From the NCBI GenBank assembly GCA_018139225.1, contig JAGSNX010000001.1, positions 930,001 to 994,000 of the forward strand: a stretch of DNA of 64,000 nucleotides, read 5' to 3'. Of the stretch, positions 7,897 to 56,503 are shown piece after piece (positions within the stretch are counted from its first letter, which is position 1; the number at the start of each line of letters is the position of its first letter). The notes under the pieces were generated by a model, which made no database searches, had not been told where the DNA came from, and was given only the letters and a program-made list of their open reading frames with translations. A program made the translations under genes and the position numbers. The DNA comes from Microvirga sp. SRT01 (GTDB lineage: Bacteria; Pseudomonadota; Alphaproteobacteria; Sphingomonadales; Sphingomonadaceae).

Positions 7897-8745
7897 ATGC
7901 GCTTCTCGCACCTTCTCGTTGGCGGTCTTTCGCTCGTCGCCGCTTCGCCCGCTCTGGCGCAAGACGACACCGCCCCGCCACCGCCCGTTACGATCAGCGG
8001 CTCCGCCGCCATCGTATCCGACTACCGTTTCCGCGGCGTCTCGCAGTCCGACGAGGATGTCGCGGTGCAGGCTGGCGTCACCATCTCGCATGAGAGCGGC
8101 CTGTATGGCGGCTTCTGGGGATCGAATCTCGCCGGTTGGGGCACGTTCGGCGGCGCGAACCTCGAACTCGACATCATCGGCGGCTACAAGTTCAAGCCCA
8201 CCGAGGACGTGACGCTCGACGTCGGCGTCACCTATTATATGTATCCGGGCGGCGCCGATAAGACCGACTTCTTCGAACCCTATGCCAAGGTGTCCGGCTC
8301 GCTTGGGCCGGCGTCGCTGACCGCTGGCGTCGCCTATGCTCCCGCGCAGGAAGCGCTCGGCCGCTGGTACTTCACCGGTGCCGATGCAGCCGCCGGCGTC
8401 TACAATGATCCGGGCGACAAGGAGGACAATCTGTATCTCTGGGTCGATGCCGCGACCGCCCTGCCCAGCACGCCGTTCACGCTGAAAGGCCATGTCGGCT
8501 TTTCGGACGGCAATCGCGGGCTCGGTCCCAACGCCACCTCGGTCGCGCCGACCGGCAAGTATTTCGACTGGATGGTCGGGGTCGACACGACGTTCAAGAA
8601 CCTGACGCTGGGCGTTTCCTATGTCGGCACCGACATCTCCGCGCGCGACGCCGAATATCTCCGCCCCAGCTTCAGCAACGGCCAGGACGGCAGCGGCAAC
8701 ATCGCCGACGGCACCTTCCTGTTCTCGCTCACCGCGGCATTCTAA
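7897..8745 (+). CDS. TorF family putative outer-membrane porin
   Basis: This 282-residue protein has a clear signal peptide ending ASPALAQ, a short proline-rich linker, and then a body of alternating beta-strands. The region SGSAAIVSDYRFRGVSQSDEDVAVQAGV is the hallmark of the TorF / TIGR02001 family, and it ends in an aromatic C-terminal strand (FLFSLTAAF) suited to recognition by the BAM machine. Members are thought to be 12-strand or larger barrels in the outer membrane; the transported substrate is not known. AAAAGGGGAA supplies a ribosome site nine bases before the ATG. It stands alone, not obviously in an operon. Confidence 0.85.
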   Translation: MRFSHLLVGGLSLVAASPALAQDDTAPPPPVTISGSAAIVSDYRFRGVSQSDEDVAVQAGVTISHESGLYGGFWGSNLAGWGTFGGANLELDIIGGYKFKPTEDVTLDVGVTYYMYPGGADKTDFFEPYAKVSGSLGPASLTAGVAYAPAQEALGRWYFTGADAAAGVYNDPGDKEDNLYLWVDAATALPSTPFTLKGHVGFSDGNRGLGPNATSVAPTGKYFDWMVGVDTTFKNLTLGVSYVGTDISARDAEYLRPSFSNGQDGSGNIADGTFLFSLTAAF

Positions 8746-8766
8746 AGCGGAAAACGTGGGCTGAAT

Positions 8767-8791
8767 CTCCCCTCCCCTTCAGGGAGGGGAG
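8767..8791. repeat. Hairpin CTCCCCTCCC / GGGAGGGGAG downstream of the porin gene
   Basis: A perfect 10-bp inverted repeat with a five-base loop (CTTCA), 21 bp after the porin stop. The same arm sequence recurs near 49.56, 56.4 and 60.1 kb, so it belongs to a dispersed element. It could also stop transcription of the porin gene, although it has no T-tract. Confidence 0.6.
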
Positions 8792-8886
8792 CATCCGCGT
8801 GTACCTCGCTCGTGGAAGGACCCACCCGGCCCTTACTTGAAACGAAGGTAAGCCTGGGCCGAACCCACGCCATCAGGCCCGGAACG

Positions 8887-8918
8887 AAAAGGGGCGGCCT
8901 CCTCACGGAAGCCGCCCC
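8887..8918 (-). terminator. Intrinsic terminator of the ribF-ileS-lspA-bamF transcript
   Basis: Read on the minus strand, an 8-bp stem GGGGCGGC / GCCGCCCC with a 12-base loop is followed by TTTT. It lies about 190 bp beyond the bamF stop and is the first terminator-like structure on that strand. Confidence 0.6.
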
Positions 8919-8978
8919 CTTGACGCGTTACACCGGCGAAAGCCGGCGTCTTATTCAGTCGTGAGGCATCGGTGCGAG

Positions 8979-9045
8979 CCGTTCGTGCCGAGGTTGTCGA
9001 AGCACAGGTGGGACCCATGCCCTTCGACAGGCTCGGGGCGAACGG
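8979..9045. repeat. Imperfect inverted repeat (TTCGACAGGCTCGGG type)
   Basis: A 24-base left arm at 8979-9002 pairs with a right arm at 9022-9045 at 21 of 24 positions. A second, more diverged copy lies at 28988-29074. Both sit at the ends of transcription units. Confidence 0.6.
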
Positions 9046-9107
9046 ACATCAAGTCATCATGTCCAGCGCGGCAGCCCCGCCCCGTCGGACCAGACCGCGC
9101 GTCGATC

Positions 9108-9512
9108 CTACTGCGCCGTCGCTTTCGCGTCCGCGCCATCCGCGGCGGGGGCAGCGACGATGTCGCGCGTCGTCGTGCCCTTGTTGACGACATTCGTCTG
9201 GGGATCGCCGACCGACGAGCGGATACCGTTCTCCGCCGTGTCGCCACCAGCCTCCTCGACCACCGCCGACTCGGCGGCGCTACGCGGAGCCGTGCCGCCG
9301 AACAGCGCGTCCAGCGTCTGCGCCTGCGTCGATACATCCTGCGGGCGGGCGGCCCCCGGCTGCGGCGGCACCAGTGCGTAATCGGGCGGGATCACCAGCG
9401 GAGCCTGACGCGCGACTGCGAACTCGTCCGGCCGCGCCCGGTCGAGCGACTTGCCCGCGCAACCCGACAGGATCGAAGCGGCCCCGGCGACGAGGATGAC
9501 GGACTTACGCAT
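9108..9512 (-). CDS. bamF: DUF3035 lipoprotein, BamF-like
   Basis: This 134-residue protein begins with a lipoprotein signal, MRKSVILVAGAASILSGC, giving a lipobox LSGC at residues 15-18. After it comes SLDRARPDEFAVARQAPLVIPPDYALVPP, the conserved DUF3035 block with the RPDEF motif. In Caulobacter this family is BamF, an accessory lipoprotein of the outer-membrane beta-barrel assembly complex in alphaproteobacteria. The rest is low-complexity and hydrophilic. The gene overlaps the lspA stop by 8 bp, so the lipoprotein signal peptidase and one of its substrates are translated from adjacent positions on one message. Function here rests on family membership. Confidence 0.8.
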   Translation of the reverse strand: MRKSVILVAGAASILSGCAGKSLDRARPDEFAVARQAPLVIPPDYALVPPQPGAARPQDVSTQAQTLDALFGGTAPRSAAESAVVEEAGGDTAENGIRSSVGDPQTNVVNKGTTTRDIVAAPAADGADAKATAQ

Positions 9513-20259: not shown

Positions 20260-21477
20260 TCAGCGTCCGACCATCCGGCGTGCGAAATGGACCTCGACGG
20301 CGCGACGGACGCTTTCGGCGATGGCTTCGCGGCCGTCATCGGAATCGAGGAAGGCGGCATCCCTGGGGTTGGAGATATAGCCCGTCTCGAACAGGATCGA
20401 CGGCAGGTCGGGCGCCTTAAGGACCATCAGCGACGCCATGCGGTGGAAGTTGGTCTTGGTCGGGATCAGCGGCTTGGCCTCGCGCCCCAGCAGACGAGCG
20501 AACGTCGCCGAGTTGTTCATCGTCTCGCGCTGAGTCAGGTCGATCAGGATCGAGGACACGTCGGCGCCGGCATCGCCGAGGTTCACGCCGGCGATCACGT
20601 CCGCCTTGTTCTCGCGCGCGGCGAGGCGTGCGGCTTCCTTGTCGGAGGCGACTTCGGACAGGGTGTAGACGGACGCGCCGGTGGCGTCGCCGCTGCCGAC
20701 GCTGTCGCAGTGGATCGAGATGAACAGGCTCGCCTTCAAACGCCGGGCGATGCCATAGCGTTCGCGCAGGACGAGGTACTTGTCGCTGTCGCGGGTCAGC
20801 GCGACGCGGACCCGGCCGCCGTCCAGCAGTTCCTTGCGGATGGCGCGCGCGATCTTCAGCGTCACGTCCTTCTCGCGCAGCTTGGTGACCGGATTGATCG
20901 CGCCGGGATCGACACCGCCATGCCCGGCGTCGATCACGACCAGCGGGCGGGTGTCGTCGCCCGCGACGCGAGGGAGCGGCGGGGCCTTGCGCGCGGGCGG
21001 AACGGGAACGGTGACCTTGTATTTCGGCCTGGAGCCGAACGACAGGAAGTCGAGAGGTCCCGCAATACTGGCGGCGATAAAGCGACCGTCGTCGACCGGC
21101 CTCAAGGTCAAGGTCAGCTCGCGACCGCTGGAGTCGAAGCCACCGTCCGACACGATCACCGGGCGTACCAGATCGAACACCAGCCGCCGACCACCATCCT
21201 CGCGGTGGACCGCGCCGACCGGGCCGGCGGGCGCGATCGACAGGCCCCTCGGTGCATTCCCGACATCGACCGCGATCTGACGCGGCTCGTCCAGCAAGGT
21301 CGCCGCCGCATCGGTGGCGGGCGCGTCGAACCGGATGACGATGTGCGTACGATCGATCGCTACCGAGGTGACCGTCGCGGCGAATACCGGCGTCGCGATC
21401 GCCGCCGATGTCAGCGCGAGCGCGAAGGCCGCGCATCGCATGCGCCGCCCGCCGCCCCTGCCGTCGCCCCCGAACAT
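20260..21477 (-). CDS. amiC: N-acetylmuramoyl-L-alanine amidase with AMIN domain
   Basis: This 405-residue secreted protein splits septal peptidoglycan during daughter-cell separation. After a signal peptide (ALALTSAAIATPVFAA) comes an AMIN domain (about residues 35-140, with IRFDAPA and LTLRPVDDGRF), which directs amidases to the septum. The Amidase_3 catalytic domain has VVIDAGHGGVDPGAI (first zinc histidine), REKDVTL (glutamate), SIHCDSV and LFETGYISNP (C-terminal glutamate). Start choice: ATG 21477 has AGGGG eight bases upstream; ATG 21441 gives a neater signal peptide. AmiC versus AmiA/B naming is by architecture only. Confidence 0.88.
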   Translation of the reverse strand: MFGGDGRGGGRRMRCAAFALALTSAAIATPVFAATVTSVAIDRTHIVIRFDAPATDAAATLLDEPRQIAVDVGNAPRGLSIAPAGPVGAVHREDGGRRLVFDLVRPVIVSDGGFDSSGRELTLTLRPVDDGRFIAASIAGPLDFLSFGSRPKYKVTVPVPPARKAPPLPRVAGDDTRPLVVIDAGHGGVDPGAINPVTKLREKDVTLKIARAIRKELLDGGRVRVALTRDSDKYLVLRERYGIARRLKASLFISIHCDSVGSGDATGASVYTLSEVASDKEAARLAARENKADVIAGVNLGDAGADVSSILIDLTQRETMNNSATFARLLGREAKPLIPTKTNFHRMASLMVLKAPDLPSILFETGYISNPRDAAFLDSDDGREAIAESVRRAVEVHFARRMVGR

Positions 21478-21946
21478 CCTGCTCGCCCCTGCTCGCGGTC
21501 CAAGGGCACTGGAGCGCCCGCGGGGACCGAATATCGTTACGCCTACCATAAATCCGCTGTAACGACCTATGGTTAACGCAATCTTAGCCTTTACCGATCT
21601 ATGCCGAGCATCGCGGAAAAGCGCCGGTTGCGACGAACGGTTGGCAATGCTAGCTATGGATTGCATCCGTGCGTCGGTCCAGACCGGTGCCGGTTCCGCG
21701 CGTCCGCCCGGTTGGCGGACATATTCCAGGTTGACGCTCGCATGACGCATTTCCCCCGCACGCCAGACCGCCCGGCCTTCGCCGGCGGGAGCGGCGTGGC
21801 GCGGGAGCCGAACGGCCCACCGCCCCGGCGGCGTTCGCGAGCAGACGCATTCCTTGCAACATCGGCGACGCCGGCACCCTGCCGCGTCGCGACCAATCGT
21901 CGCGCGTTCCCCCCCGAGGGTGGCGGACGCGCGTGGAGAGCCATCA
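21478..21946. other. Long spacer between divergent amidase and rne genes
   Basis: These 469 bases contain no gene I can support; the ORFs that cross it are compositional. The half nearer rne probably includes a long 5' leader of the rne message. Long leaders are known to mediate RNase E autoregulation in enterobacteria, and whether this one does so is untested. AT-richer sequence at about 21540-21610 is the likeliest place for the two divergent promoters, but I could not assign convincing -35 and -10 boxes. Confidence 0.4.
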
Positions 21947-52385: not shown

Positions 52386-52553
52386 TCAGATCAGGAACGT
52401 GTAGAAACAGGTGAAGAACGCAGCGAAGCTGAGCAGGAACAGCTTCCAGTCGTGATCCTCGCTGCGGACGGCCGCTACGGCAGGCACGCGCGGCAGCGTC
52501 TGGCGGAAGGGATGCCTTGCGGCTTCGTTGGTCAGGACAAGGCGTCGTTTCAT
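52386..52553 (-). CDS. 55-residue single-pass membrane protein
   Basis: Reading the minus strand from ATG 52553 gives MKRRLVLTNEAARHPFRQ, an 18-residue basic start, a linker with SEDHDWK, then one hydrophobic helix LFLLSFAAFFTCFYTFLI ending at the stop. It is too short for most gene callers. The coherent layout (charged N-terminus, acidic SEDHDWK, C-terminal helix) resembles small tail-anchored membrane proteins that I recall in sphingomonads. It lacks an obvious ribosome site. Function unknown. It ends 8 bp beyond the convergent transporter gene. Confidence 0.6.
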   Translation of the reverse strand: MKRRLVLTNEAARHPFRQTLPRVPAVAAVRSEDHDWKLFLLSFAAFFTCFYTFLI

Positions 52554-52684
52554 GGCGCATGTGTTAACGCGCCGTTTACGAATTGGACCAGCGACAAAAA
52601 TGGTTAACCGCCACCCGTCCGGCGATGGGACGGATAGCGGTTAACGCGCCCGCCCTCCCCGACCCGGAGAGGCGATCGGGAATG

Positions 52685-53962
52685 TCAGCGCGAGGCGACC
52701 TGCAAGCCCGGCTTCCGCAGCCACTGCGCCATCGCGTCGCCGGCGTTGCGGCGAACGAAACAGGCACCGCCGCGTGCACGATATTTCGTGCAGAGCGCCA
52801 CGGCCTGCGTGCGATCGAACCCGCCGATCGACAGGCGATAGAAGTCGCTGCCGCCGGTCTTGAACATCATCCCCTGAGGCGTGTGCCCGGCGAGTGCGGA
52901 AAAGCGCCGCGTCATCCGTCCCCACGCGTCGCGCGCAACGCCGGGCGCACCGAACGCGCCGAGCTGGACCTGCCAGTCGCCCGAACGGACCGCCGGCTGC
53001 GCCGCTGCACTCTGGCGCAGGATCGCAGCGAAGGACACCTTGGCGGGCGCCTTGTCGGCGGCGATCAGGATCGACGGCGGCATCGGCAGCGGCTGCACGA
53101 CTTCCTTGCGAGGACCGAATACGACAGGCGCGAGCAGCGGCGTGGGCAGCGGCTCCGCGGCAGGGACGATCGCGACGACCTTCTCGACCGGCTCCGCCTC
53201 GGCGACAGAAGCCGCTTCGGGCGCAGCGGCCGTCATCGTCGGCGCGGCGGACAGCGCCAGCGTCACCGGCTGGCCGCTATCGGCGACCGGATGCACGCCG
53301 AGCAACGTCGCGACCTGATCGGACGCGGCGGCGGGCTGCGCGAAGCTGGCCCATTCCTGCATGCGGTGGTCGACATCGGCGGGCGACAGATCGGCGGACG
53401 CCGCGGCCCGCGCCATCGTCCAGTCGCCGGCCAGCGCCAGCGCCAGGGCGAGGTTCTGCCGCACGGTCGCGGTCGCCCCCGGCAGGCGCGCAGCCTGCGT
53501 CAGCAACGCGACGCCGCCCGCCGGATCACCGGCCAGCGCCATCGCCAGCCCGCGATCGGCCAATGCGATCTGGTTCGCGTGATCGATCAGCGTCGTGCGC
53601 GCCGTTGCGAAATCGCCTGTCGCGATCTGCATCAGCGCCAGGTTCAGCGCGGTCGCGCCGTCGTCCGGCACCAGCGACAGCGCGTCGGCATAGGCTGCGC
53701 GTGCCGACTGGAAGCGACCCGCCTGAAGATAGCTCTTCGCCAGCAGCACGCGGTAATTGGCGACCGACGGTGCGGCGGCGACCGCCGCCTCCGCCTCGCC
53801 GATCGCGAGCGCGGGGCGATGCTTGTCGAGCGCCTTGCCCGCCTTGCGAGCGTGATCGGCGGGGCTGCCCTTGGCGGCGTCGCCACCGATGGCGCTGCCC
53901 GCCATCACCGTGCCGATCGCCAGCGCCGAGAGGCCGAGCGAGAACAGCGTGCGCGTCTTCAT
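52685..53962 (-). CDS. Periplasmic TPR and SPOR domain protein
   Basis: This 425-residue protein has a signal peptide (LFSLGLSALAIGTVMAGSAIGG), TPR repeats at about residues 35-200 (ANYRVLLAKSYLQAGRFQSARAAYADALSLVPDD and next), a proline/alanine-rich linker, and a C-terminal SPOR domain (GDWQVQLGAFGAPGVARDAWGRM, FYRLSIGGFDRTQAVALCTKYRARGGACFV). SPOR domains bind glycan strands lacking stem peptides at the division septum. It is the third gene of an operon after parA and the RHH gene, with 15 bp between. Confidence 0.87.
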   Translation of the reverse strand: MKTRTLFSLGLSALAIGTVMAGSAIGGDAAKGSPADHARKAGKALDKHRPALAIGEAEAAVAAAPSVANYRVLLAKSYLQAGRFQSARAAYADALSLVPDDGATALNLALMQIATGDFATARTTLIDHANQIALADRGLAMALAGDPAGGVALLTQAARLPGATATVRQNLALALALAGDWTMARAAASADLSPADVDHRMQEWASFAQPAAASDQVATLLGVHPVADSGQPVTLALSAAPTMTAAAPEAASVAEAEPVEKVVAIVPAAEPLPTPLLAPVVFGPRKEVVQPLPMPPSILIAADKAPAKVSFAAILRQSAAAQPAVRSGDWQVQLGAFGAPGVARDAWGRMTRRFSALAGHTPQGMMFKTGGSDFYRLSIGGFDRTQAVALCTKYRARGGACFVRRNAGDAMAQWLRKPGLQVASR

Positions 53963-53977
53963 GTCATCGACTCCGGA

Positions 53978-54511
53978 TCAGGCGGTACGGCGGGCCTTGG
54001 GTGCGGGCAGCTGTTCGATCAGCGCCTCCACCTCGGGCATCGTGTTCAGGAAGGCGTCGAGCGCGTCGGCGACCAGCGCCTGCGCCGAGCGGTTCGCGAC
54101 CGCACTCGCCAGCCGCAGCCGCAGGTGTCGATCGGTGTCGAGGCGCAGCGTGAAGGCGGCCTTGCCGCGCTTCGTCTGGGCGGCGCTGTCGCGCCCGATC
54201 CGGGCGGCGGTGGCGATCGATACCGGCCGCGCCTCGACCCGCTCGCGCAGCACGGCGCGTTCGGTCAGCACCGGCGGCGCCTCGACGGGCAACGACACGG
54301 GCGCTTCCGCGACGGGTACGATGGACGGTTCGGGCGCCGTTACAGCCGCGACGACAGGCTCCCCGCCCATGTCGTTCCAGCCGAGATCGTCGGCGCTAAC
54401 CGCCATCGTCTGCGGCGTGTGGGACATGGCGAAGGCCTGGCTGCGCATCGCGGGCCGGGCCTGCCCCTTGCGGGCGAGCAGTTGCGATGAAAGCGAGGCG
54501 AGCGGCTTCAT
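53978..54511 (-). CDS. Ribbon-helix-helix-like protein, partner of ParA
   Basis: This 177-residue protein has a disordered N-terminal part of about 115 residues, rich in proline, alanine and glutamate. Its C-terminal part (about 118-170) shows the pattern of an RHH DNA-binding domain: strand AAFTLRLD, helix TDRHLRLRLASAVANRS, helix AQALVADALDAFLNTM. This resembles the partition protein ParG. It starts 5 bp after the ParA stop, so the two are surely co-translated. DNA binding is predicted from pattern only. Its long disordered head differs from the short tail of ParG. Confidence 0.65.
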   Translation of the reverse strand: MKPLASLSSQLLARKGQARPAMRSQAFAMSHTPQTMAVSADDLGWNDMGGEPVVAAVTAPEPSIVPVAEAPVSLPVEAPPVLTERAVLRERVEARPVSIATAARIGRDSAAQTKRGKAAFTLRLDTDRHLRLRLASAVANRSAQALVADALDAFLNTMPEVEALIEQLPAPKARRTA

Positions 54512-54516
54512 GCCCC

Positions 54517-55227
54517 TTACCCCACCACGCGACGGCCGAAGCCCGACGCGGCCGGGCGCTGGCCGAAGCCGACGGTGCCCGGAACCGCGAATACGGTTCG
54601 GCGGAAATTCTTCTCGAGGCGATCGGAGACATAGGTCCACAGCGCCTCGACCTCCGCCGCCGATTTGCCGTTCGGGTCGGTTTCCATGACCGTGCGGCCG
54701 TCGATCATCGACGCGGCGAAGTCGGTACGCTGGTGGATCGTGATCGGTGCGACCGTGCCGTGCTGCGACAGCGCGACCGCGGCCTCCGACGTGATCCGCG
54801 CCTTGGGCGTGGCGGCGTTGACGACGAACACCAGCGGCTTGCCGGCGCGGTCGCAGATGTCGACGGTGGCGCCGACCGCGCGCAGATCGTGCGGGCTGGG
54901 ACGCGTCGGCACCAGCACCAGTTCGGCGACCTGGATGACGCTCTGGATCGCCACGGTGATCGCCGGCGGTGTGTCGATCATCGCCAGCTTGAAGCCCTGC
55001 TGGCGCAGCACCTCCAGATCGGCGGCGAGCCGTGCCACGGTGGTTTGCGCGAAGGCGGGAAACTCCGACTCCCGCTCGTTCCACCATTCGGACAGCGATC
55101 CCTGCGGATCGATATCGATCAGCACGACGGGTCCTGCGCCGGCGCGTTGCGCCTGCACGGCGAGATGGCCGGACAAGGTGGTCTTGCCCGATCCGCCTTT
55201 TTGCGATGCCAACGCGAGAACGCGCAT
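54517..55227 (-). CDS. ParA family ATPase (orphan, small type)
   Basis: This 236-residue protein has the deviant Walker A SQKGGSGKTTLSGHLA at the N-terminus, Walker A-prime VLIDIDPQGSLSEWW and Walker B LAMIDTPPA. It lacks the N-terminal DNA-binding domain of plasmid type Ia ParA, so it matches ParF/Soj-like or cargo-positioning ParA types. No parB or parS-like repeats are nearby. It heads the minus-strand operon parA - RHH gene - TPR/SPOR gene and is divergent from a second SPOR gene, with about 155 bp between. Confidence 0.9.
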   Translation of the reverse strand: MRVLALASQKGGSGKTTLSGHLAVQAQRAGAGPVVLIDIDPQGSLSEWWNERESEFPAFAQTTVARLAADLEVLRQQGFKLAMIDTPPAITVAIQSVIQVAELVLVPTRPSPHDLRAVGATVDICDRAGKPLVFVVNAATPKARITSEAAVALSQHGTVAPITIHQRTDFAASMIDGRTVMETDPNGKSAAEVEALWTYVSDRLEKNFRRTVFAVPGTVGFGQRPAASGFGRRVVG

Positions 55228-55382
55228 AGTTCCCCGACACTCCTGTAAGTCGATCGGGGAAGTGACACGCGCGTCCCTAATAACTCGTTAAATCTCTCGC
55301 TTTAGAAATACCCCGGACGAACAACGCCGGTGAACGCGATCTTGACCAAAGACCACGGTACACCGGGCTCGAGGAACGGACG

Positions 55383-56318
55383 ATGACGAAGCTGCTGCCA
55401 TCACTGGTGTCCGCATTGGTGCTGTCGATAACCGCCGCGCCCGCGGCGGCGGATGTGAAGACCGGTGTCGATGCGTGGGGCCGCGGCGAATATTCGCGTG
55501 CGGTGCAGGAGTGGCGGACACCGGCGGTGCAGGGAGACCCCGACGCGCAGTTCAATCTGGCGCAGGCGTACAAGCTGGGCCGCGGCGTGCCAGTCGATCC
55601 GGCGCAGGCGGAAAGCTGGTTCCGCAAGGCCGCCGATCAAGGCCATCAACAGGCACAGGACAATTACGGTCTCGCGCTGTTCCAGGGGGGCCACAAGGAA
55701 CAGGCCGCGCCGTGGCTGTTCAAGTCCGCCGACCGCGGCGAGGCGCGCGCGCAGTTGGTGCTCGGCACGATGCTGTTCAACGGCGACGGTGTGCCGCGGG
55801 ATTACCCCCGCGCTTACGCGCTGATGACGCGCGCATCGCAGGCGGGATTGCAGTCGGCCGGCACGACCCTGGCGCAGATGGACCAGTATATCTCCGCCGA
55901 GGATCGCGAGCGCGGGCTGACGCTGGCGCAGGAATATGCGGTGGGCTCGGTGACGCCTGACCTGCCGGGCGCGGCAACGACCACGCCGGTGAAAGCCGTG
56001 AAATCGGCGTCTGTGGTGAAGCCCGTCGCGATTCCGGCCTCCGTGCTGCGTGAGCCGGTCCTGCGCGCCGAGCCGAAGACGGTCGCCAGACCGCGGGCAA
56101 AGACCGGAGCATGGCGGGTGCAACTCGGCGCCTTCCGCGATCGCGGCAATGCGGAGGGATTGTGGAGGCAGGTTCGCGGCAAGCTCGGCGGCGCGGAACC
56201 GGCCTATGTAGCGGGCGGCGGGGTCACCCGGTTGCAGGCGACCGGCTTTATGAACAAGGCGGAGGCTCAGCGCGCATGCAAAGCCGTAGCGGCATCGTGC
56301 GTGGTGGTGGCGCCGTAG
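55383..56318 (+). CDS. Periplasmic Sel1-repeat and SPOR domain protein
   Basis: This 311-residue protein has a signal peptide ending AAPAAAD, several Sel1-like repeats at about residues 30-170 (GDPDAQFNLAQAYKLGRGVPVDPAQAESWFRKAADQGHQQAQDNYGLALF and next), a linker, and a C-terminal SPOR domain (GAWRVQLGAFRDRGNAEGLWRQV, RLQATGFMNKAEAQRACKAV). It starts 155 bp from divergent parA. With the TPR/SPOR protein it brackets the ParA operon, and both probably act at the septum. Confidence 0.87.
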   Translation: MTKLLPSLVSALVLSITAAPAAADVKTGVDAWGRGEYSRAVQEWRTPAVQGDPDAQFNLAQAYKLGRGVPVDPAQAESWFRKAADQGHQQAQDNYGLALFQGGHKEQAAPWLFKSADRGEARAQLVLGTMLFNGDGVPRDYPRAYALMTRASQAGLQSAGTTLAQMDQYISAEDRERGLTLAQEYAVGSVTPDLPGAATTTPVKAVKSASVVKPVAIPASVLREPVLRAEPKTVARPRAKTGAWRVQLGAFRDRGNAEGLWRQVRGKLGGAEPAYVAGGGVTRLQATGFMNKAEAQRACKAVAASCVVVAP

Positions 56319-56391
56319 AGTTCTCGACGGGCTCGTTGCGGCATCCGCCGTTCCGCAGATGGGATTTCAGCTGACACCGCAAAGCCATCTT

Positions 56392-56491
56392 CTCCCCTCC
56401 CCTTCAGGCGAGGGGCTGGGGGTGGGGCGATGCCGCGAGTACATCGCCTGAGGGGAGGCCCCACCCCAACCCTGCCCTGAAGGGGAGGGAG
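56392..56491. repeat. 100-bp palindromic element (CTCCCCTCCCCTTCAGG type)
   Basis: The left half CTCCCCTCCCCTTCAGG..., through a GGGGTGGGGCGATG block, is mirrored in the right half ending ...CCTGAAGGGGAGGGAG. The centre is about CCGCGAGTA. It lies between the stops of the convergent Sel1-SPOR and serB genes. A related element lies at 60121-60255. Confidence 0.7.
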
Positions 56492-56503
56492 TAGAAAATT
56501 TGG

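Follow-up and report, generated by a model that had tools for sequence, protein, structure and literature searches.

The type Ib partition system ParF-ParG of TP228 combines a small ParA ATPase that lacks a helix-turn-helix domain with a partner protein that has a basic N-terminus and a C-terminal ribbon-helix-helix (RHH) domain. A locus with a similar core is present in Microvirga sp. SRT01 (Sphingomonadaceae in GTDB), at positions 52685-56318 of the 64,000-nucleotide stretch of DNA analysed here (contig JAGSNX010000001.1, positions 930,001 to 994,000; referred to below as the window), where genes for a ParF-like ParA, a 177-residue adaptor and a TPR-SPOR protein follow one another, with a divergent Sel1-SPOR gene beside them. 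Unlike ParF-ParG, this locus is chromosomal, no iterons were found in it, the adaptor has another N-terminal tail motif and a long linker, and the pair is joined to SPOR genes. An RHH partner of a ParA is also a feature of omega-delta of pSM19035, a Gram-positive plasmid system, and omega is among the profile matches of the adaptor, but omega-delta has no link to SPOR proteins.

Similarities are also noted with other systems that employ ParA-like ATPases. In PomXYZ of Myxococcus xanthus, a ParA/MinD ATPase joins the nucleoid and the division site through an ATPase-activating protein with a short basic N-terminal tail (in the available part of PMC7993993), but the system includes a PomX scaffold and PomY, has no RHH or SPOR domain, and acts on FtsZ position. 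PpfA-TlpT and McdA-McdB pair a ParA-like ATPase with a cargo adaptor that has a basic N-terminal stretch (available parts of PMC7993993 and PMC9178275); unlike in the present system, the cargo is chemoreceptors or carboxysomes, and the likeness is one of description. Activation of ParA/MinD ATPases by basic N-terminal extensions is an established principle, and such adaptors are modular, as far as the available part of PMC7993993 describes them. Among the titles listed in a literature search, for which most subscription journals were out of reach, none concerns a ParA joined to SPOR proteins or to tail-RHH adaptors. Positioning by ParA/MinD ATPases is already known; our comparison suggests that a version with tail-bearing adaptors joined to SPOR proteins is new, and that it represents a little-noticed system tying the chromosome to the division site. 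According to the interpretation that we prefer, and about which we are evenly divided between belief and doubt, Alphaproteobacteria would have domesticated a plasmid-type ParA/tail-RHH partition pair on their chromosomes, where it would serve in positioning, and would have coupled it, by fusion in some lineages, to septal peptidoglycan.

All four open reading frames (ORFs) of the layout proposed in an earlier sequence-only reading are present and open. The ParA gene (54517-55227, reverse strand; 236 residues ending in GFGRRVV; assigned from Pfam and the nearest PDB chains) is followed after 5 bp by the adaptor gene (53978-54511, reverse strand), whose product consists of an N-terminal tail, a Pro/Ala-rich stretch and the RHH domain, as judged from alignment, profile and an AlphaFold model. 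After a further 15 bp comes the gene of the TPR-SPOR protein (52685-53962, reverse strand; 425 residues), which has a hydrophobic segment at the N-terminus. The divergent Sel1-SPOR gene (55383-56318, forward strand; 311 residues, with a signal-peptide-like N-terminus) has its start codon 155 bp from that of ParA. Pfam places SPOR domains (PF05036, cut-off 21 bits) at residues 327-405 of the TPR-SPOR protein (52748-52984, reverse strand; 36.8 bits) and residues 241-309 of the Sel1-SPOR protein (56103-56309, forward strand; 54.2 bits), together with TPR_16 in the former (40.9 bits, cut-off 32.7) and Sel1 in the latter (71.9 bits, cut-off 30.7).

The ParA has the deviant Walker A motif KGGSGKT (residues 10-16; 55180-55200, reverse strand; read from the translation), which fits the KGGxxK[ST] pattern of ParA/MinD ATPases, and K10 and K15 are invariant in a five-row alignment. 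It matches AAA_31 (51.4 bits, cut-off 27), and the closest PDB chains are ParA 5u1g (3.8e-17) and ParF 4dzz (4.1e-17), which we take to be TP228-type plasmid proteins. With the NCBIfam model NF041546 (ParA_partition) the score is 167.9 bits, under the curated cut-off of 180, so the protein falls outside that equivalog. The arrangement is not that of a chromosomal ParABS system, since the gene adjoining ParA encodes the RHH protein and not a ParB. Assignment as MipZ was considered (27.1 bits, Pfam cut-off 20.7) and rejected, because another gene of the genome, G000:C3:406123, scores 372.6. A canonical ParA followed by an ORF that is ParB-like by eye lies at G000:C3:258452. The canonical pair and MipZ being encoded elsewhere, the window ParA comes in addition to them as a chromosomal ParA/MinD ATPase. 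On contigs C8 and C9 of the same genome, both small and plasmid-like, there are more ParA genes, one of them followed by a 96-residue ORF that by eye is RHH-like and lacks the tail.

The RHH domain of the adaptor (about residues 118-156; 54044-54160, reverse strand; profile, AlphaFold model and Foldseek) gives a weak signal when the single sequence is searched (PF20605 at E 0.065, no Pfam match at 0.05). A profile of 46 sequences resolves this, matching seven PDB chains at E<=1, all of which we take to be RHH proteins: 56B (2.2e-4), ParG 1p94 (0.028), two omega chains (omega at 0.4), two CopG-family chains and E73. Among the 46 members, Pfam detects RHH_10 in 19 and Antitox_RHH in 11 at E<=0.05. 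The AlphaFold model has a mean predicted local distance difference test score (pLDDT) of 73.8, and helices 126-139 and 143-156, which follow the expected strand region, lie in blocks with pLDDT of 94-98. All 41 Foldseek matches against the PDB are non-significant (E>=0.87); by name, we count 26 as RHH proteins, 13 as other proteins (among them BldD, vimentin and a histone complex) and two as unclear. The proposal of a C-terminal RHH fold is thus borne out by profile and model, though weak from one sequence. The strand residues FTLRLD, presumably those that face DNA in Arc-type RHH proteins, are invariant in the family alignment, which holds 38 of 41 rows (the three omitted rows also have tail matches). 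A further motif, DLGWNDMG (residues 42-49; 54365-54388, reverse strand; from the same alignment), is conserved in 37 or 38 of the 38 rows at each of its eight positions, and was not seen by eye in the aligned non-Sphingomonad rows.

The adaptor begins with an N-terminal tail, LASLSSQLLARKGQARPAMRSQ (residues 4-25; 54437-54502, reverse strand; from the alignment), with the consensus A-x-L-x3-L-[LI]-x-x-K-G-x-A-x-P, whose core is invariant in the 38 family rows. As for systems of the ParF-ParG type, the ParA partner in the window thereby has both an RHH domain and an N-terminal tail. Strict tails directly follow ParA in 68 of 80 named loci (the ParA of one runs off its contig), and seven positions (A, L, L, K, G, A and P) are invariant in these 68; the search pattern required an L-like residue, K or R, G and A, so that the proline is invariant without having been required. 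In 38 loci from the class survey, the gene after ParA fits the pattern in 26, eight more (L119, L120, L127, L131, L133, L136, L143 and L145) have by eye a looser tail and an RHH-like end, and two (L130 and L142) reach the contig edge before a tail could be called. In a control, among 498 called genes of at least 100 residues in 40 loci (the 38 class loci and two from the own genome, with a simple gene caller that missed some adaptors), 16 have it within the first 60 residues, and 16 of 16 lie directly after ParA. Because of its place, its invariance and its reuse on other carriers, the tail reads as a ParA-docking and ATPase-activating element.

This reuse becomes apparent outside the family. 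A ParA match at E<=1e-30 occurs in 74 of 337 genomes of the class; 44 of these, outside the family, have 52-69% identity, followed by a gap to 44% and below, and the 26 of 398 phylum genomes that pass 1e-45 are all Alphaproteobacteria. In three genomes from other families of the order (L178-L180), ParA, a tail protein and a TPR-SPOR-like gene lie on one strand, the last a weak match (27-33% identity), and in L180 a Sel1-SPOR-like gene on the opposite strand intervenes. By hydropathy, 55 of the carriers in the 68 named loci have no transmembrane (TM) helix; most of them end RHH-like by eye (exceptions L224 and L240; L222 is short). A TM helix is present in the other 13, of which 11 give a SPOR match; the two without one are presumably L198 and L254, which both run off their contigs. 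Five further tail-TM-SPOR loci (L114, L117, L128, L132 and L140) have SPOR scores of 30.4-55.4 bits. Named carriers of this kind include Parvibaculum and, with an incomplete sequence, Pelagibius. With a single TM helix, SPOR at the C-terminus and an extended low-complexity stretch, they would be FtsN-like bitopic SPOR proteins, set apart by the ParA-associated tail and by genes that lie directly after ParA. RHH-type and TM-SPOR-type copies coexist in four genomes (G207, G320, G340 and G404), and in the ParA tree six TM-SPOR loci group with the RHH-type locus L120, loosely supported (88/62, and 85/32 in a second tree). A gene beside the ParA-tail-TM-SPOR genes of L207 encodes a protein with SPOR (32.8 bits) and a Sel1 match below cut-off (22.5 against 30.7) that resembles the window Sel1-SPOR protein.

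Within the family, 199 genomes were surveyed for genome-wide matches. The RHH protein (E<=1e-3) is present in 155, ParA (E<=1e-60) in 153, the TPR-SPOR protein (1e-10) in 172 and the Sel1-SPOR protein (1e-10) in 179. ParA and the RHH protein occur together in 151 genomes and are both absent from 42, so the two are gained and lost jointly. Six genomes are discordant: in G119 and G178 the partner has the tail but a diverged C-terminus, the contig of G085 stops about 120 bases beyond the partner, the match in G124 starts at base 61 of its contig, in G057 the match is at E=0.001 and the Sel1-SPOR locus lacks the pair, and G008, without ParA and a tail-bearing ORF, retains an RHH ORF. Six genera (g9, g32, g35, g37, g44 and g62) include genomes with and without an intact pair, which suggests repeated loss or gain. 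A TPR-SPOR match accompanies ParA in 153 of 153 genomes, against 19 of the 46 others, and the order ParA-RHH-TPR-SPOR, an apparent operon in Sphingomonadales, is kept in 40 of 40 family loci that were fetched, all of them picked from the RHH matches, with Sel1-SPOR divergent in 34. The conservation of the neighbourhood that the sequence-only reading called for is thus found. ParA identity is 79-88% across these loci and falls to 74% among the genome-wide family matches, two being weaker still.

Relatives on plasmids sharpen the likeness to ParF-ParG that had been noticed from the sequence. At E<=1e-5, the window RHH protein has no match in 72,556 plasmid records, and ParA has 3,217, eight of them at 60-80% identity; such relatives of ParA occur in Beta- and Gammaproteobacteria. 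In six plasmid loci that were opened (ParA identity 58-67%), ParA precedes a small ORF with the tail (less strict in L304) and, by eye, an RHH-like end. Four are annotated as hypothetical proteins and two are unannotated; when four were scanned for RHH domains, one exceeded the RHH_10 cut-off (29.3 against 27), one was sub-threshold and two gave nothing. Replication genes lie nearby in two of the six records. The pair resembles a partition module of plasmids that moved onto chromosomes, the root of the tree and the direction being uncertain, and class loci on short contigs may be plasmids themselves.

In the mechanism that we propose, ParA-ATP dimers would coat the nucleoid, and the RHH protein would dimerise through its C-terminus and so display two N-terminal tails. 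Docking of the tails on ParA would trigger ATP hydrolysis, and the resulting ParA gradient would move or place whatever the carrier domain holds, including any cargo of the RHH domain. In Sphingomonadales the pair would be tied through the operon to a TPR-SPOR protein predicted to bind septal peptidoglycan, whereas the bitopic membrane-SPOR protein that bears the tail in Parvibaculum and its relatives could discharge ParA at the division-site envelope, or allow ParA to steer this envelope. We infer the septal function from the SPOR fusions and the gene linkage. If true, Sphingomonads and many Alphaproteobacteria hold a further chromosomal ParA/MinD ATPase beside ParABS and MipZ, tail-TM-SPOR proteins provide some lineages with a direct physical route from nucleoid to septal peptidoglycan, and a plasmid partition motor became a cell-division positioning device by exchange of carriers behind one short docking tail. 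The tail would also offer a straightforward, testable motif with which to search for the adaptors of orphan ParA proteins. A bolder version, to which we incline only tentatively and with more doubt than belief, makes the K-G tail a tag for docking on ParA that can pass from protein to protein: once they had captured the plasmid pair, Alphaproteobacteria would have re-attached the tag to long RHH adaptors, to bitopic SPOR proteins as markers of the septum and to a DivK paralogue, yielding a general system for nucleoid-to-division-site (and polarity) positioning that runs in parallel to MipZ and ParABS.

Several observations weigh against a link of ParA to septal peptidoglycan, or against the generality of the tail. 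Judged by sequence, the two SPOR proteins of the window appear periplasmic, which would keep them from contact with cytoplasmic ParA. Eight loci picked by coordinates (L164-L171) keep the two SPOR genes facing apart and lack the pair, so SPOR function does not depend on ParA, and conversely L182 (in G114) has the ParA-RHH pair away from both SPOR genes. The coupling to Sel1-SPOR is loose (141 of 153 genomes with ParA, 38 of 46 others), and the Fisher value of 2e-21 for co-occurrence of ParA and TPR-SPOR is not a probability, because the counts ignore phylogeny. RHH-type loci of other orders continue with non-SPOR genes, for example those of sub-threshold PAS_5 proteins, and the gene after ParA lacks a tail in 2 of 38 class loci (L138 and L141) and a strict tail in 11 of the 80 named loci. 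The earlier suggestion of a connection from ParA to the division site consequently survives in part: it gains strength from the tail-TM-SPOR proteins of other orders and from the constant presence of TPR-SPOR with ParA, and loses it for the two SPOR proteins of the window itself.

An alternative that we consider improbable, if the least so of the three discussed here, is strict partition of chromosomal DNA, with the RHH protein bound to a centromere-like site, ParA segregating the region, and the SPOR neighbours incidental. Proximity of the adaptor profile to 56B, ParG and omega, the invariant FTLRLD strand (presumably DNA-facing), the TP228-type plasmid chains that are nearest to ParA in the PDB and the plasmid relatives, presumably partition pairs, all agree with it, but neither an iteron array in 52500-56500 nor a common upstream palindrome was seen, and the position of the locus varies among single-contig genomes (by contig coordinates). 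Incidental neighbours are also difficult to reconcile with a TPR-SPOR match in every family genome that has ParA, and with replacement of the RHH domain by TM-SPOR in relatives. The carriers open a different view, in which the module would place signalling proteins of the cell cycle or of polarity, such as DivK and PAS proteins, instead of the division machinery, and SPOR would be one cargo among several. Locus L140 encodes ParA, a tail-TM-SPOR protein and a tail-bearing receiver in this order; the receiver (8527-9162, tail in an N-terminal extension) is a DivK paralogue (best PDB match DivK at E 4e-44, the next 3.5e-19), and its genome, G501, contains another DivK-like match (62%). Related N-terminal motifs, recognised by eye in the third genes of L119, L120, L125 and L185, point the same way. 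We regard this as quite unlikely, since DivK appears in one locus only, PAS_5 stays below cut-off in the third gene of L189 (16.4 bits against 22) and is absent from that of L203, and the window operon has no such gene.

Still less likely, in our view, is that the RHH protein is a mere autorepressor and the pair a semi-selfish plasmid relic beside SPOR genes. Clean absence of the unit from several genomes, and the existence of plasmid relatives, would suit a relic; the high identity of ParA in the 40 fetched family loci and the invariant tail core would not, nor would an upstream element that persists without the pair.

The upstream element is a conserved TTAAC-N6-TTAG (55277-55291, reverse strand) whose start lies 64 bp ahead of the start codon of ParA. 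Of 41 family loci, 34 have the form TTAA-N7-TTA[AG] in the 150 bp upstream of ParA (mean 0.1, maximum 1 in 200 mononucleotide shuffles, the background used throughout); for named Sphingomonadales the count is 15 of 39 (mean 0.13, maximum 3), and for other loci it is 6 of 40 (mean 0.36, maximum 2). In ten loci without an intact pair, all ten fixed positions are kept in five and eight or nine in the other five; GTTAACC-N5-TTAG, considered as an operator of the RHH protein, is therefore an unlikely one. No palindromes shared upstream of the operon were found, and a wide regulon with the exact element form is unsupported (5 genomic sites against 3 in the control; 24 against 38 over nine genomes). 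The element resembles the CtrA box TTAA-N7-TTAA (available part of PMC9437464) but ends in TTAG, and control by CtrA is a lead only. A second TTAAC-N6-TTAG lies at 21573-21587 of the window, flanked by an Amidase_3 gene (20263-21549, reverse strand) and an ORF that by eye is RNase E-like, and the element recurs beside such an amidase gene in one other of nine genomes (L285). SPOR domains bind amidase-processed peptidoglycan, according to the available part of PMC7822825, which gives this second site some interest.

The chromosomal setting asserted in the sequence-only reading holds: the operon is on a contig of 1.25 Mb, not on a plasmid as in the ParF-ParG type, and its neighbours (serB, miaA and the ilvBNC side, names from reading the ORFs) read as chromosomal. 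No PADLOC match at E<=0.01 indicates an association with defence, and a search of a viral structure library gave nothing useful. The C-terminus of ParA is GFGRRVV-like in Sphingomonads (54517-54550 in the window, reverse strand) and RGAA-like in most TM-SPOR loci (L184-L263). An FGRR-like end is found in 37 of 55 non-TM against 0 of 13 TM-SPOR named loci, and the class set gives 19 of 35 against 0 of 6; lineage may account for this association with the adaptor class, since the 37 are Sphingomonad-type loci. In L195, L203, L205 and L206 a tandem second ParA-like gene, perhaps a degenerate partner, precedes ParA and has DSxSA instead of DTPPA as its second motif. The gene after the RHH adaptor in L185, L189, L203, L119 and L120 has by eye a related N-terminal motif (ASL-x2-I-x-VRK or similar) and is possibly a second adaptor. 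The third gene of L125, after ParA and the RHH adaptor, encodes a 178-residue protein with a hydrophobic anchor at its C-terminus and a tail-like sequence, ASLSANLIPRHK. Between the TPR-SPOR gene and a convergent transporter-like gene of the window lies an inverted repeat (52603-52645) with 18-nt arms, 89% complementary, whose ends are GTTAACC and its complement.

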